Translations under genes and position numbers: made by a program
Shown: in pieces, positions 35,134 to 41,094 of the stretch
Layout of the letters: each line of letters opens with the position of its first letter
Numbering within the stretch: the first letter of the stretch is position 1
Origin: Kiloniellaceae bacterium
GTDB taxonomy: Bacteria; Pseudomonadota; Alphaproteobacteria; Kiloniellales; J153
DNA length: 45,883 nt
Assembly: GCA_021776215.1 (NCBI GenBank)
Contig: JAJFGI010000015.1
Span: 1-45,883, forward strand
Reading direction: 5' to 3'
The notes under the pieces: model-generated
What the model was told of the DNA's origin: nothing
Seen by the model: the letters and a program-made list of their open reading frames with translations, nothing else
Databases searched by the model: none

Positions 35134-35898
35134 ATGGCCGGGCGCGTCAGCTTCATGGCGCTCGAGGGCATCCCGGAGATGGAACCCGGCGATGATCTCG
35201 CGACCCTGATTTCCGCGGCGCTGGACGCCGGCGACACCCCGCCCGCCCCGCGCGACATATTCGTCGTGGCGCAGAAGATCGTCTCCAAGGCGGAGGGACG
35301 CTCCGTGGATCTGAGCACGGTGCAGCCGTCGGATCTGGCGCACGATCTGGCCGCCGTGGCCCAGAAGGATCCCCGGTTGGTCGAGTTGATTCTTTCCGAG
35401 TCCGACGAAGTTGTAAGGGTCAAGCCGGGCGTCATCGTGGTCGCCCACCATCTCGGTTTCGTCATGGCGAATGCGGGAATCGACCGTTCGAATCTCGGCC
35501 CGGACGGCGACGACCGGGTGCTGCTACTGCCGCGCGACCCGGACGCCACGGCGGACTCTTTGCGTCGCGCGCTGGAGGCCCGATATGGTATGCCTCTCGG
35601 TGTGATCATCAGTGATAGTTTCGGCCGGGCCTGGCGAAACGGTGTCGTCAACGTGGCGCTTGGTGCAGCCGGCCTGCCGGCGCTGATCGATGCCAGGGGA
35701 CGGCAGGATCGTGATGGCCGTAAGTTGGAGGTCACGCAGATTGCCTTTGCCGATGCCGTGGCGGCCGGTGCCGCCCTGGTCATGGGCGAGGGCGACGAGG
35801 GCACGCCCGTCGTCTTGGCGCGCGGAGCTTTTTCCGACGCGCCGGTGGCGAAAGCGTCGTCGCTAATTCGGCCGAAGACGGAGGATCTGTTCCGATGA
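35134..35898 (+). CDS. cofE: Coenzyme F420-0:L-glutamate ligase
   Basis: VAQKIVSKAEGR, ISDSFGRAWRNGVVNVALGAAGLPALID. Confidence 0.94.
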   Translation: MAGRVSFMALEGIPEMEPGDDLATLISAALDAGDTPPAPRDIFVVAQKIVSKAEGRSVDLSTVQPSDLAHDLAAVAQKDPRLVELILSESDEVVRVKPGVIVVAHHLGFVMANAGIDRSNLGPDGDDRVLLLPRDPDATADSLRRALEARYGMPLGVIISDSFGRAWRNGVVNVALGAAGLPALIDARGRQDRDGRKLEVTQIAFADAVAAGAALVMGEGDEGTPVVLARGAFSDAPVAKASSLIRPKTEDLFR

Positions 35899-36866
35899 GC
35901 CGGCATCGTATCGTGGCCTTGTCGGGTGGAATTGGCGGGGCGAAGCTGGCGCTCGGTCTGTATCATGCGCTGCCGCGTCATGAGCTTTGCGTGGTCGTCA
36001 ATACCGGGGACGATTTCGAGCCCCTCGGTCTGTCCGTTTCGCCGGACCTGGACACAGTGCTTTATGCCCTCGCCGGATTGGACAATTCCGACACCGGCTG
36101 GGGCCGGCGTGACGAAACCTGGACCTTCATGCGCGCCCTGGAGACCCTCGGCGGCGAGACCTGGTTCCAACTCGGCGACGGCGATCTGGCGCTCCATGTC
36201 GAGCGTACACGCCGCCTGAAAGCCGGCGAACCCTTGAGCGCCATTGTGGCCGATGCGGCGCGGCGCTGGGGCGTTGCCGCCAGCATCCTGCCGATGAGCG
36301 ACGATCCGCTGCGGACGATCGTCGAGACCGACGAGGGGACGTTGCCCTTTCAGGAGTATTTCGTGAAGCGCCGCTGCACGCCGCGTGTGGTTGCGGTGCG
36401 TTTCACCGGCATCGAAGCGGCACGGCCGCACCCCGAGGTCTTGGCCGCTTTGTCGGATGAAACGACAGAGGCGATCGTGATCTGTCCCTCCAATCCCTAT
36501 CTAAGCATCGATCCCATCCTCGCGGTTCCGCAGGTGCGCGCGGCGCTCGCCGGGGCGTCGGCGCCAGTGATCGCGGTGGCCCCGATCGTCCGCGGCCGGG
36601 CGATCAAGGGACCGACCGGGAAGATCATGACGGAGCTCGGCTTGCCGGTTTCCGCGGCCGCCGTGGCGGCGCATTATGACGGGTTGCTTGACGGCTTCGT
36701 TCTCGACCGCGCCGATGCGGCCCTGGAACGGGAGATCGCCGTGCCGACACTCGTGACCGATACCATGATGCACGATCGCGACGACAAGGTCCGCCTGGCC
36801 AAGGCCGTGCTCGACTTTGCCCGGAGCCTGACATTGGCGGACGCAGGGCGGAGGGCGCTGCCATGA
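35895..36866 (+). CDS. cofD: 2-phospho-L-lactate transferase family (CofD)
   Basis: ALSGGIGGAKLALGLYHALP, VNTGDDFEPLGLSVSPDLDTVLYALAG. Confidence 0.95.
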   Translation: MSRHRIVALSGGIGGAKLALGLYHALPRHELCVVVNTGDDFEPLGLSVSPDLDTVLYALAGLDNSDTGWGRRDETWTFMRALETLGGETWFQLGDGDLALHVERTRRLKAGEPLSAIVADAARRWGVAASILPMSDDPLRTIVETDEGTLPFQEYFVKRRCTPRVVAVRFTGIEAARPHPEVLAALSDETTEAIVICPSNPYLSIDPILAVPQVRAALAGASAPVIAVAPIVRGRAIKGPTGKIMTELGLPVSAAAVAAHYDGLLDGFVLDRADAALEREIAVPTLVTDTMMHDRDDKVRLAKAVLDFARSLTLADAGRRALP

Positions 36867-37492
36867 GCGTTTGGGCCGTCGTCCCGGTCAAGGCCCTGGA
36901 TCGGGCCAAGCAACGCCTCGCGCCGGCGCTCGACGCGCCGGACCGGCGGCGTCTCGCCCAGGCCATGTGCGATGACGTGCTCGCCACCTTGGGGACGGTG
37001 CGCGGTCTGGCGGGCATCGCCGTGGTGACCAGCGAACGGGACTTGGTGCCCGCCGGGATGCGCCGGATCGAGGATCGGGGCGATGGCCTCAACGCCGCCC
37101 TGGCGTTGGCGGCGGCCGTCCTGGAGAGCGACGGCGCGACGGCGATTCTGGCAATCGCCGCCGACGTTCCCCTGACCAGCCGCGAGGAGATCGAGGATGT
37201 CCTGACGGCCGGGCGCACGGCGCCGATCGTGATCGTGCCGGATCGACAGGAGCGCGGCACCAACGCGCTGCTGCTCTCGCCGCCGACCCGGATGGCGCCG
37301 GCGTTCGGCGCGGCGAGCTTGGTTCGGCACACGGTCATGGCCCGCGCGCGTGGCATTGAGCCGGTGGTCCTGCGCCTGTCGGGCCTGGGCTTCGATGTGG
37401 ACGATGCTGCGGCACTCGACGATCTTCGGCGCGCCACGGCCGGCCGGCCGAACTACCGCTTTCTGACACCGGCCATGGCGGCGGCGCGATGA
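36863..37492 (+). CDS. cofC: 2-phospho-L-lactate guanylyltransferase family (CofC)
   Basis: VVPVKALDRAKQRLAPALDAPDRRRLAQAMCDDVL; RQERGTNALLLSPP. Confidence 0.93.
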   Translation: MSVWAVVPVKALDRAKQRLAPALDAPDRRRLAQAMCDDVLATLGTVRGLAGIAVVTSERDLVPAGMRRIEDRGDGLNAALALAAAVLESDGATAILAIAADVPLTSREEIEDVLTAGRTAPIVIVPDRQERGTNALLLSPPTRMAPAFGAASLVRHTVMARARGIEPVVLRLSGLGFDVDDAAALDDLRRATAGRPNYRFLTPAMAAAR

Positions 37493-39924
37493 GCGACGCG
37501 CGTGCAATCCTGATGCAGACACGAGACGGCCGGCGGCCGTCGCGAGAGGAGGCGCTTGCGTTGGCCGGGTTCGATGATCTCGGCGCCCTCATGGAGGTGG
37601 CCGAGGATCTGACGCTGCGCGGGTTCGGCCGCGATGTCAGCTACTCGCGCAAGGTTTTCGTGCCGCTGACGCAACTCTGCCGCGATGTCTGCCATTACTG
37701 CACCTTCGCGCAACCGCCCCGGAATTCGGCCAAGCCGTTCCTAACGCCCGACGAGGTCTTGGCCATCGCTCGCGCCGGTGCCGCCGCCGGCTGCAAGGAG
37801 ATTCTGTTTACATTGGGCGACAAGCCCGAGCAGCGCTACCGTGTGGCGCGCGAGGCGCTCGCCGAGCTCGGTCACCAGACGACGCTGTCCTACCTAGCGG
37901 CCATGTCGCAACTGGTGCTCGAGGAAACCGGGCTGCTGCCGCATCTCAACCCCGGCCTGATGTCGGAGGCCGAGATGGAGACCCTGCGCCGGGTCTCGGT
38001 TTCCATGGGGATCATGCTCGAATCCTCTGCTGAACGGCTGTGCCGGCGCGGCGGCCCCCATTGGGGTTCTCCCGACAAGAGACCGGCGGCCCGCCTCGAA
38101 ACACTGCGCGCGGCAGGACGGCAAAAAATCCCCTTCACCTCCGGCATCCTGATCGGCATCGGTGAGACGCGCCAAGAGCGCATCGAGTCGCTGCTGGCTT
38201 TGCGCGACGTGCACGACGAGTACCGGCATATTCAAGAGATCATCGTGCAGAACTTCCGCGCCAAGCCGGACACGCGGATGGCGGCGTCCCCGGAACCGAG
38301 CCTGGAGGACCATCTCTGGACCATCGCCGTGGCCCGTATTCTGTTCGGCGCCGACACGACAATTCAGGCGCCGCCGAACTTGCGGCCCGACGCTTGCGCG
38401 GCTTTGATTCGCGCCGGCATCAATGATTGGGGCGGCGTGTCGCCGGTAACCCCAGATCACGTCAACCCCGAAGCGCCCTGGCCGCAGCTTGACGCGCTGG
38501 CCGCGGAAACGGCGGCGGGCGGCCGCATCTTGACGGAGCGCCTGGCGGTTCACCCCGGTTATCTGCGCGATGAGGCGGGGTGGTTGGAGCCGTCCTTGAG
38601 CACGCGCGCGCTGCGCTGGACCGACGGCGGCGGTTACGTACGTACCGACGATTGGTTTGCCGGAACGCGCACCCCTTTGCCGCGAGGCGACGCGGCGGTC
38701 CCGTCGTCGCCGGTCGTGCCTCGGCCGATGCCGGAGGTTCGGCGTTGTCTCGATCATGTCGCGGACGGTCGCGCCCTCTCGGCGGATGAGATCGTGACGC
38801 TGTTCGGCGCGCGCGGCGGCGACTATCAGGCCGTCGTCACGGCAGCCGACCGTCTCCGCCGCGAGGTGGTGGGCGACACGGTCAGCTACGTGGTCAACCG
38901 CAACATAAACTATACCAACGTCTGCCAGTATCGCTGCGCCTTTTGCGCCTTCTCGAAGGGGCGCACCGCGGCGTCTCTGCGCGGCCCGGCCTACGATCTG
39001 GCGGATGACGAGATTGCGCGCCGGGTCGGCGAGGCCTGGGCCCGCGGCGCCACCGAGGTTTGTCTGCAGGGCGGCATCCACCCGCAGTACACGGGGCGCA
39101 CGTATCTGCATGTCCTGGAAGTCGTGAAGGCGGCGGCGCCCGATATGCACGTGCACGCCTTCTCGCCGCTCGAGGTGACCCATGGCGCCCAGACCTTGGG
39201 GTTGTCGCTGCGCGCCTATCTGGCGGAATTGCAGGCGGCGGGACTCGATACCTTGCCGGGCACGGCGGCAGAAGTGCTGGACGACGACGTCCGGAAAATC
39301 ATCTGCCCGGACAAGGTTTCGAGCCAGGAATGGCTCGACGTGATGCGCACGGCGCACGGGCTCGGTCTGCGGACCACCGCGACCATCATGTTCGGCCATG
39401 TCGACGGGCCGGCCCACTGGGCCAACCACCTGCTGCGCGTTCGGGCGCTGCAGGAGGAGACCGGCGGCTTCACCGAATTCGTGCCCCTGCCGTTCGTGCA
39501 CATGGAGGCGCCGCTTTGGCTCAAGGGCAAAGCGCGGTCCGGTCCGACCTACCGCGAGGCCATTCTCATGCACGCGGTCGCCCGGCTGGTTCTGCACCCG
39601 CTGATCGGCAACATCCAGGCCTCGTGGGTCAAGATGGGGCCGGAGGGCGCGGGCGAATGCCTGCGCGCCGGCGCCAACGACCTCGGCGGCGTGCTGATGA
39701 ATGAATCGATCACCCGCGCGGCGGGCGCGGACCACGGGCAGGAGATGAGCCCGGCGCGGCTGGAAGCGCTGATCCGTGCCGCCGGACGCACGCCGCGTCA
39801 GCGGACGACGCTGTATGGAGAAGTCCCGGCGGCACGCTGCGCCGCCGCCTTCGCCGCCGCGCCCGCACAGCCGGTCGTCAACACCCCGTTGCGGCGCGGC
39901 AAGCTGGCGGGTGTTGCCACCTGA
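37489..39924 (+). CDS. fbiC: F0 (7,8-didemethyl-8-hydroxy-5-deazariboflavin) synthase, CofG-CofH fusion
   Basis: Two radical-SAM motifs: CRDVCHYC (CofG half) and CQYRCAFCAF preceded by NRNINYTNV (CofH half). Confidence 0.95.
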   Translation: MSDARAILMQTRDGRRPSREEALALAGFDDLGALMEVAEDLTLRGFGRDVSYSRKVFVPLTQLCRDVCHYCTFAQPPRNSAKPFLTPDEVLAIARAGAAAGCKEILFTLGDKPEQRYRVAREALAELGHQTTLSYLAAMSQLVLEETGLLPHLNPGLMSEAEMETLRRVSVSMGIMLESSAERLCRRGGPHWGSPDKRPAARLETLRAAGRQKIPFTSGILIGIGETRQERIESLLALRDVHDEYRHIQEIIVQNFRAKPDTRMAASPEPSLEDHLWTIAVARILFGADTTIQAPPNLRPDACAALIRAGINDWGGVSPVTPDHVNPEAPWPQLDALAAETAAGGRILTERLAVHPGYLRDEAGWLEPSLSTRALRWTDGGGYVRTDDWFAGTRTPLPRGDAAVPSSPVVPRPMPEVRRCLDHVADGRALSADEIVTLFGARGGDYQAVVTAADRLRREVVGDTVSYVVNRNINYTNVCQYRCAFCAFSKGRTAASLRGPAYDLADDEIARRVGEAWARGATEVCLQGGIHPQYTGRTYLHVLEVVKAAAPDMHVHAFSPLEVTHGAQTLGLSLRAYLAELQAAGLDTLPGTAAEVLDDDVRKIICPDKVSSQEWLDVMRTAHGLGLRTTATIMFGHVDGPAHWANHLLRVRALQEETGGFTEFVPLPFVHMEAPLWLKGKARSGPTYREAILMHAVARLVLHPLIGNIQASWVKMGPEGAGECLRAGANDLGGVLMNESITRAAGADHGQEMSPARLEALIRAAGRTPRQRTTLYGEVPAARCAAAFAAAPAQPVVNTPLRRGKLAGVAT

Positions 39925-39990
39925 GCGGCGCCTAGAGCGGGTGTGCGGCAAATGGCATCGGGATGTGATACGGGCGTGTTCGGTGTGCCA

Positions 39991-40103
39991 TCCTTCGAGA
40001 CGCCGCCTTTGGCGGCTCCTCAGGATGAGGAGATTGAATTTCTTCGATAATTTACACTAACCTCATCCTGAGGAGCGGTGCGAAAGCACCGCGTCTCGAA
40101 GGA
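39991..40103. repeat. Large inverted repeat with two lateral hairpins (cruciform-capable), possible bidirectional terminator
   Basis: Left TCCTTCGAGACGC/CGCCTTTGGCGG/CTCCTCAGGATGAGG; right arm reverse complement TCCTTCGAGACGC/GGTGCTTTCGCACCG/CTCCTCAGGATGAGG; between convergent genes. Confidence 0.85.
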
Positions 40104-40143
40104 GAGGGGATGACGAGTACGATCACACCTCGAACAATACCGC

Positions 40144-41094
40144 CTAGGACGCCTTGAGGCGGGGAATAATCTCTTGCGCGATCGCCTCGACCTGCTCCAT
40201 CTCGTAGCGGTAGGGCACGAAGATGATGCGGTCGATGCCGGTATCGATATGCGCCTGAAGCTGCTCGACGCACTCCTCCGGCGTTCCCATGATGGCGCTG
40301 TCCGGGGTTGATTTGCTCCACTTGGCGAAGTCCCATTCGGTTCTGAGCCATTCGTTCATCGGGCCCTCGACCTTGGCGCGCGGACCGACCACGATGGGAA
40401 GCTGATTGGCGCTGATCAGGGTGGACGGGTCCTTGCCGCCTTCTTCGGCGAAGTTGCAGACCTTGGTCCAATCCGCGGTGAAGGACTCGGCGGTGTAGAA
40501 ATAAGTCAGCCAGCCGTCGCCCTTGAGGGCGGCGCGCTTCAGGACGCGGTCGACGTAGCCGCCGATCAATAGCGGCGGCCGCGGCTTTTGTACAGACTTC
40601 GGAAACATCCGTGCCTGGCGCAGGTTATGCGGCCCGAACTCGCCGGTCACCCAGTCTTCGGTCATCAGCGAATTCAGGATATCCAGATTGAGATCCATGA
40701 TATCGCCGCGCTTGTGGAAGTCGACGCCGACAGCGTCGAACTCGCGCTTGTACCAGCCCGCCGCCATACCGAGCATCAAGCGCCCGTTGGAAATGTGATC
40801 GATGCTGGTCAATTGCTTGGCCAGCGTGACCGGATTGCGCAACGGCAAGACCAGAATGCCCGTGCCCAGTTTGATCGTCTTGGTCGTCGCGGCCACGGCC
40901 GAGAGCAGAGTCAGGGAATCGATGATCGGGAAGCAGGGATCGACGCCAAGTAGGATGTGATCCCATACCCAGAGCGACTCGTACCCCAGTTCCTCGGCGC
41001 GCTGCGCGAATTTGATCAGCTGCTGCGGATCGGGCACATCCGGATAGGCCTGGAAGTTGCGCAATGCAATGCCGAATTCGGTCGTTTTTGCCAT
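40144..41094 (-). CDS. LLM-class (luciferase-like) F420-dependent oxidoreductase
   Basis: FAQRAEELGYESLWVWDHILLG, ISNGRLMLGMAAGWYKREFDAVGVDFHKRGDIMD, PLLIGGYVDRVLKRAALKGDGW. Confidence 0.9.
   Translation of the reverse strand: MAKTTEFGIALRNFQAYPDVPDPQQLIKFAQRAEELGYESLWVWDHILLGVDPCFPIIDSLTLLSAVAATTKTIKLGTGILVLPLRNPVTLAKQLTSIDHISNGRLMLGMAAGWYKREFDAVGVDFHKRGDIMDLNLDILNSLMTEDWVTGEFGPHNLRQARMFPKSVQKPRPPLLIGGYVDRVLKRAALKGDGWLTYFYTAESFTADWTKVCNFAEEGGKDPSTLISANQLPIVVGPRAKVEGPMNEWLRTEWDFAKWSKSTPDSAIMGTPEECVEQLQAHIDTGIDRIIFVPYRYEMEQVEAIAQEIIPRLKAS

Follow-up and report, generated by a model that had tools for sequence, protein, structure and literature searches.

The palindromic sequence between two convergent genes in this alphaproteobacterium can be drawn as a four-armed cross, and this raises the question of whether it is a single structure maintained as such or something of another kind. 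The first-pass annotation of the window (the whole stretch of DNA that was analysed, 45,883 nucleotides) had favoured the former, proposing one cruciform-capable element under selection for its structure and possibly acting as a bidirectional terminator. Its placement between convergent fbiC and a luciferase-like monooxygenase (LLM) gene agrees with the gene coordinates, fbiC stopping at 39924 and the stop codon of the LLM gene lying at 40144-40146. The region 35895-41094 carries a coenzyme F420 cluster (cofD, cofC and fused fbiC) together with the convergent monooxygenase, in what is apparently an uncultured alphaproteobacterium.

We re-examined the structure at 39991-40103. The perfect outer and inner arms were recovered, the inner arms (40015-40030 and 40061-40076; 16 nt, 100% complementary) being one base longer than annotated, and so were the two lateral hairpins, unlike in sequence and intact in pairing (CCGCC-TTT-GGCGG at 40003-40015 and GGTGC-GAAA-GCACC at 40077-40090). 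Folded as RNA, the 119-nt region reached -74.5 kcal/mol as compared to a shuffled mean of -32.9 (z -11.7; 0 of 200 shuffles), and DNA parameters gave a similar stability (z -11.3). An Rfam search of the window returned no match above the gathering score. What had been described as a single structure turned out to be one repeat unit present twice in inverted orientation, as units A and B, with their tags facing inward (Table 1). The unit is a palindrome of about 42 nt, CCTCATCCTGAGGAGC-(variable stem-loop)-GCGTCTCGAAGGATG, whose stem consists of 6 bp, a 2-nt bulge, 4 bp, an A-G mismatch and a variable stem of 5-7 bp. Unit A has its CCTC tag at 40027-40030, followed by an outer stem, a 2-nt bulge, a middle stem and the inner hairpin CCGCC-TTT-GGCGG, while the outer stem of unit B is shorter because GGATG has become GGAGA. 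The spacer between the tags is equal in length to that of the copy on contig C296, their likeness in sequence being without significance.

Table 1. Coordinates of genes, repeat units and flanking features at the fbiC/LLM junction.
Feature	Position	Strand	Remarks
Fused fbiC, left convergent gene	37489..39924	+	811 aa; radical SAM and CofH_C domains
Candidate remnant of a left terminal repeat, CCTAGAGCGG	39931..39940	.	Clear at C296, not significant in window
Repeat unit A	39989..40030	-	Covariance model match 65.9 bits, E 1.5e-16
Left outer arm of between-unit inverted repeat	39991..40003	.	13 nt, 100%
AT-rich spacer between tags	40031..40060	.	30 nt
Repeat unit B	40061..40105	+	Inner hairpin GGTGC-GAAA-GCACC; covariance model match 55.3 bits
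Right outer arm of between-unit inverted repeat	40091..40103	.	13 nt, 100%
Right flank, CGAGTACGATCACACCTCGAACAATACCGCCTAGG	40106..40147	.	Common to contig C296 copy; p 0.0005
LLM, right convergent gene	40144..41094	-	316 aa

A genome-wide search for further copies confirmed that the element is not single-copy and that it is a dispersed palindromic element, as the annotation had suspected, with five loci in this genome and hundreds of units elsewhere. The assembly (3.85 Mb, fragmented into 435 contigs) held a pair at each of the five loci, namely the window and contigs C296, C86, C11 and C216; since the C216 locus reaches the end of its contig and C86 stops less than 20 bases from such an end, copies are probably undercounted. 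Of 387 genomes sampled from the class, whose identification as Alphaproteobacteria is taken from the named matches, 25 had exact units, with up to 63 per genome, and a reversed control pattern had no occurrence in the same genome samples. Every one of the 17 positive genomes in a phylum-wide sample belonged to this class, and 0 of 236 genomes from the other classes of the phylum had an exact unit. Named carriers were Bradyrhizobium, Bosea, Reyranella, Rhodopseudomonas, Microvirga and Afipia, along with many other alphaproteobacterial contigs. A covariance model search gave 1 to 57 matches each in most near relatives. Many short matches (26-29 nt) of equal score in three genomes (G003, G008 and G026) point to a truncated form related to the unit.

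The fetched loci (1.03 Mb) contained 309 units as compared to none in shuffled sequence; these loci were fetched by exact pattern, so that one unit per locus looks conserved, and related sequences in the counts and alignments are not independent. Close pairs accounted for 275 of the 309 units (89%) and single units for 34. The 141 distinct pairs comprised 88 with tags outward, 45 with tags inward, as in the window, and 8 in tandem. In pairs with tags outward (e.g. L083, L100 and L152) the spacer ends were complementary, at a mean of 2.8 of 5 positions against 1.4 in shuffled sequence, so that the hairpin reaches into the spacer; the same feature, looked for in pairs with tags inward, was not shown there.

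We consider it highly probable that the element is an inverted heterodimer of the REP/BIME type, built of a CCTC-tagged palindromic unit of about 42 nt that is patchy across Alphaproteobacteria and probably forms RNA hairpins at 3' ends. In common with REP/BIME elements, it has a palindromic unit capable of forming a hairpin (20-40 nt) and numerous copies between genes, both as single units and as inverted pairs, and it lies mainly 3' of genes, in convergent or tandem gaps as judged from crude gene calls. We observed multiple copies, mostly as inverted pairs, covariation in the stem within units, a bias towards convergent gaps, no flanking RAYT, and absence of the unit from the orthologous junction of a relative.

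How the pair spreads is the concern of a further proposal, compatible with the REP/BIME reading, in which the REP pair lies inside a MITE-like element of about 215 nt with terminal inverted repeats, mobilised by an unidentified transposase. We regard this as possible, though on the unlikely side. The amplified piece in this lineage does appear larger than the interval first annotated, since the right flank common to the window and C296 overlaps the stop codon of the LLM gene. Terminal repeats of 23 nt border the C296 copy (CCTAGAGCGGTAtTGCaTTAGGT, p 0.001), the right flank of the window matches that copy, and a second, different flank pair is common to the other three copies of this genome (C86, C11 and C216) and is present in relatives too. 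However, the copies with significant terminal repeats were those at C296 and two in G026; the window and most other copies had none that reached significance, and the left and right flanks of the window had no significant match with each other. Target duplication was not established, and no larger element with these ends was found in this genome. A larger element with terminal repeats is real at C296 and weak elsewhere, with no autonomous partner found in this genome.

The history of the site was examined in relatives. The monooxygenase ortholog was present in 2 of 20 relatives searched. In genome G005, fbiC adjoins the monooxygenase ortholog and the junction, orthologous to 39925-40143, is without the unit; a RAYT-type gene (L201:721-1392, 223 aa) with flanking inverted repeats CTATTAAAGGGACAGCATACTTAATT lies there instead, and the convergent fbiC/LLM gap has thus received unrelated REP-type elements in two lineages. 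Among named contigs, L096 has a pair that the orthologous gap in L094 lacks, and there are also filled sites whose orthologs are filled. Between L109 and L134, L173 and L191, and L090 and L161, an inner hairpin differs as a block, still paired, with flanks alike; stepwise compensation, copying from another unit or palindrome template switching could each produce this.

To ascertain which fold is kept, we aligned 136 distinct units. The hairpin of the single unit was paired in 96% of cells as compared to 80.6% in shuffled alignments, and double changes occupied 297 cells as compared to 101. Its covariation score was 0.321 against 0.068 (0 of 500 shuffles), with slid versions at or below 0.055. 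Covariation was thus very strong, and it spoke for a hairpin within each unit. In 71 of 133 inverted pairs at least one position of the outer stem was occupied by unlike Watson-Crick pairs in the two partners, each of which still paired with itself (ATCC/GGAT in one and ATGG/CCAT in the other, for instance), and the inner stem was unlike in 131 of the 133. The arms between units, which in a four-way junction or cruciform element would be maintained by compensatory change, behaved otherwise: 117 columns kept only within-unit pairing and none kept only between-unit pairing. Because the partner of a pattern-matched unit was not chosen by sequence, the within-unit pattern was not made by the search. 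Judged by covariation, the conserved shape is two separate hairpins, one per unit, and not a four-armed cross. The suggestion of selection on structure therefore held for the hairpin inside each unit and was not supported for the four-way junction.

It is accordingly quite improbable that both units together make up one element which was selected to form a four-way junction or cruciform and serves as a bidirectional terminator, in spite of its perfect arms, very low free energy and convergent location, and of one small terminator-like hairpin (40016-40032, plus strand, tail ATTGAATTTC). The outer-stem differences between partners keep within-unit pairs and break between-unit pairs, and 34 of the 309 units stand singly. 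For the free strand of the whole window pair, one junction was about 27 kcal/mol better than two hairpins; being the lowest-energy fold, it could form when DNA or RNA is single-stranded, and transient formation of a four-way junction may occur. Since within-unit pairing is kept where partners differ and the between-unit arms then mismatch, the junction appears to be a by-product of having two inverted copies.

The terminator component was weighed separately. As compared to background, and with gap orientation taken from a crude gene caller, elements were enriched in convergent gaps (45 of 119 versus 60 of 294; p 4e-4) and depleted from divergent gaps (14 of 119 versus 92 of 294; p 2e-5), with 60 of 119 versus 142 of 294 in tandem gaps. 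Neither outer end of the 39991-40103 element has a T-run, and a terminator scan returned one inner hairpin alone, the one at 40016-40032. A T-tract followed 35 of 617 unit ends (about 6%) as compared to 1.1% of random positions, an excess for which intergenic AT content may be the source; at this frequency, an intrinsic U-tract terminator was rejected for most copies, and the junction terminator is disfavoured as well. Hairpins of the REP type in 3' ends accord with this context better than intrinsic terminators do. Thus, of the proposed bidirectional terminator, the 3'-end role fits, but the U-tract expected of it is missing from the ends of this element.

A REP-associated tyrosine transposase (RAYT) had also been suggested as something to look for. 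This genome has two RAYT-type (Y1-type transposase) genes, L198 on contig C72 and L199 on contig C354, whose flanking repeat arrays (ACTGTCCCCAATTTTC and AGCGTCCCCTTTT, respectively) are unrelated to the studied unit; the unit was not found beside either gene. Of 15 carrier genomes, 11 had no RAYT match, several of these with about 26-31 exact units, at a score cut-off below which divergent RAYTs could be missed. None of the 15 had a RAYT gene flanked by the studied repeat, the nearest case being locus L205, where a pair lies about 940 nt from a RAYT with another gene between. RAYT association as a general cause was rejected on these counts. A RAYT-mobilised REP (REPtron) whose transposase resides in these genomes is thus very unlikely, since the two Y1-type genes, the REP-like architecture of the unit and the RAYT in the same fbiC/LLM junction of G005 are outweighed by the lack of units around the genome's own RAYTs, by the many carriers without a match, and by the unrelated terminal repeats that the RAYTs of G005 and of this genome have for themselves.

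The REP/BIME-type unit was compared with known families. A search of the literature text for the unit sequence gave no relevant match, and the REP literature found comprised PMC3733652, PMC5082802 and PMC12306157. As the text of the first (Di Nocera et al. 2013) describes it, the CGTC-tagged REP superfamily is mostly alphaproteobacterial, has a terminal CGTC or TGTC tag with a reported CCTC variant, and occurs as inverted pairs, many of them heterodimeric, within convergent or tandem gaps, reportedly without a dedicated transposase, all of which resembles the present family. Its first stem pairs, A-T then T-A, are found here in 246 and 239 of 276 distinct units, respectively. The CCTC tag is conserved, but in 254 of the 276 units pairing extends to its last C, opposite the terminal G; the superfamily tag is unpaired. 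In contrast to the 8-9 bp stem, 4-5 nt loop and CCA tail given in that text for the superfamily, our unit has a bulge, an A-G mismatch, a variable inner hairpin and a GGC-rich, weakly conserved tail-side flank. Because stem/loop layout and tail do not agree, we did not file the unit in this superfamily. Overlap with CGTC-1 of Bradyrhizobium, which has odd loops, is possible, as is a prior entry for the unit in PMC3733652, our comparison being with its text. The naming in that text (HH for tags outward, TT for tags inward) would make the window element a TT pair, and the same text describes heterodimers, convergent or unidirectional location and variable or conserved spacers in other REP families.

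REP/BIME of E. coli and other GTAG REPs with a RAYT share with our unit a bulged palindrome, a variable GC-rich loop, inverted pairs of unlike unit types and 3'-end location, but here the tag is CCTC, with no GTAG, and no RAYT has the repeat on its flanks. Br-REP1 and Br-REP2 (PMC5082802) are likewise intergenic palindromes of Bradyrhizobium and Rhodopseudomonas, one of them lying between convergent genes with overlapping 3' UTRs. They have their own sequences (CCGGAATCTCGAGATTCCGG; CGAGATTCCGGG...CCCCGGAATGA), exact short matches to which were only occasional near the studied units, and identity with them was rejected. The cyanobacterial and Halothiobacillus REP pairs described in the text of PMC3733652 resemble ours in that a REP pair is nested in a longer imperfect inverted repeat; unlike there, the outer repeat is clear here in some copies only.

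On the REP/BIME reading, pairs would spread by being copied as pairs, via enzymes not found here, and would persist downstream of stop codons, where they may be least harmful or helpful. Upon read-through from either gene, each unit would fold as its own hairpin of 15-17 bp in the 3' end of the mRNA. By analogy with REPs elsewhere, such hairpins could stop 3' exonucleases and, for transcription arriving from either side, retard it or contribute to its termination, and the unlike inner hairpins of the two units would lower long cruciform pairing. A more far-reaching version, which we hold to be improbable, is a class-wide REP family of near-obligate heterodimers without RAYT, which an unrecognised enzyme or the replication machinery of the host would mobilise and whose inner hairpin would be replaced wholesale while the site stays the same (as between L109 and L134, or L173 and L191).

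The one-off 'cruciform terminator' thus gives way to a dispersed repeat family with an identified, kept fold. The rule by which partners in a pair are nearly always unlike poses a question for REPs generally, and the filled, empty and rewritten orthologous sites are places where the origin and change of REP pairs may be studied without a RAYT.
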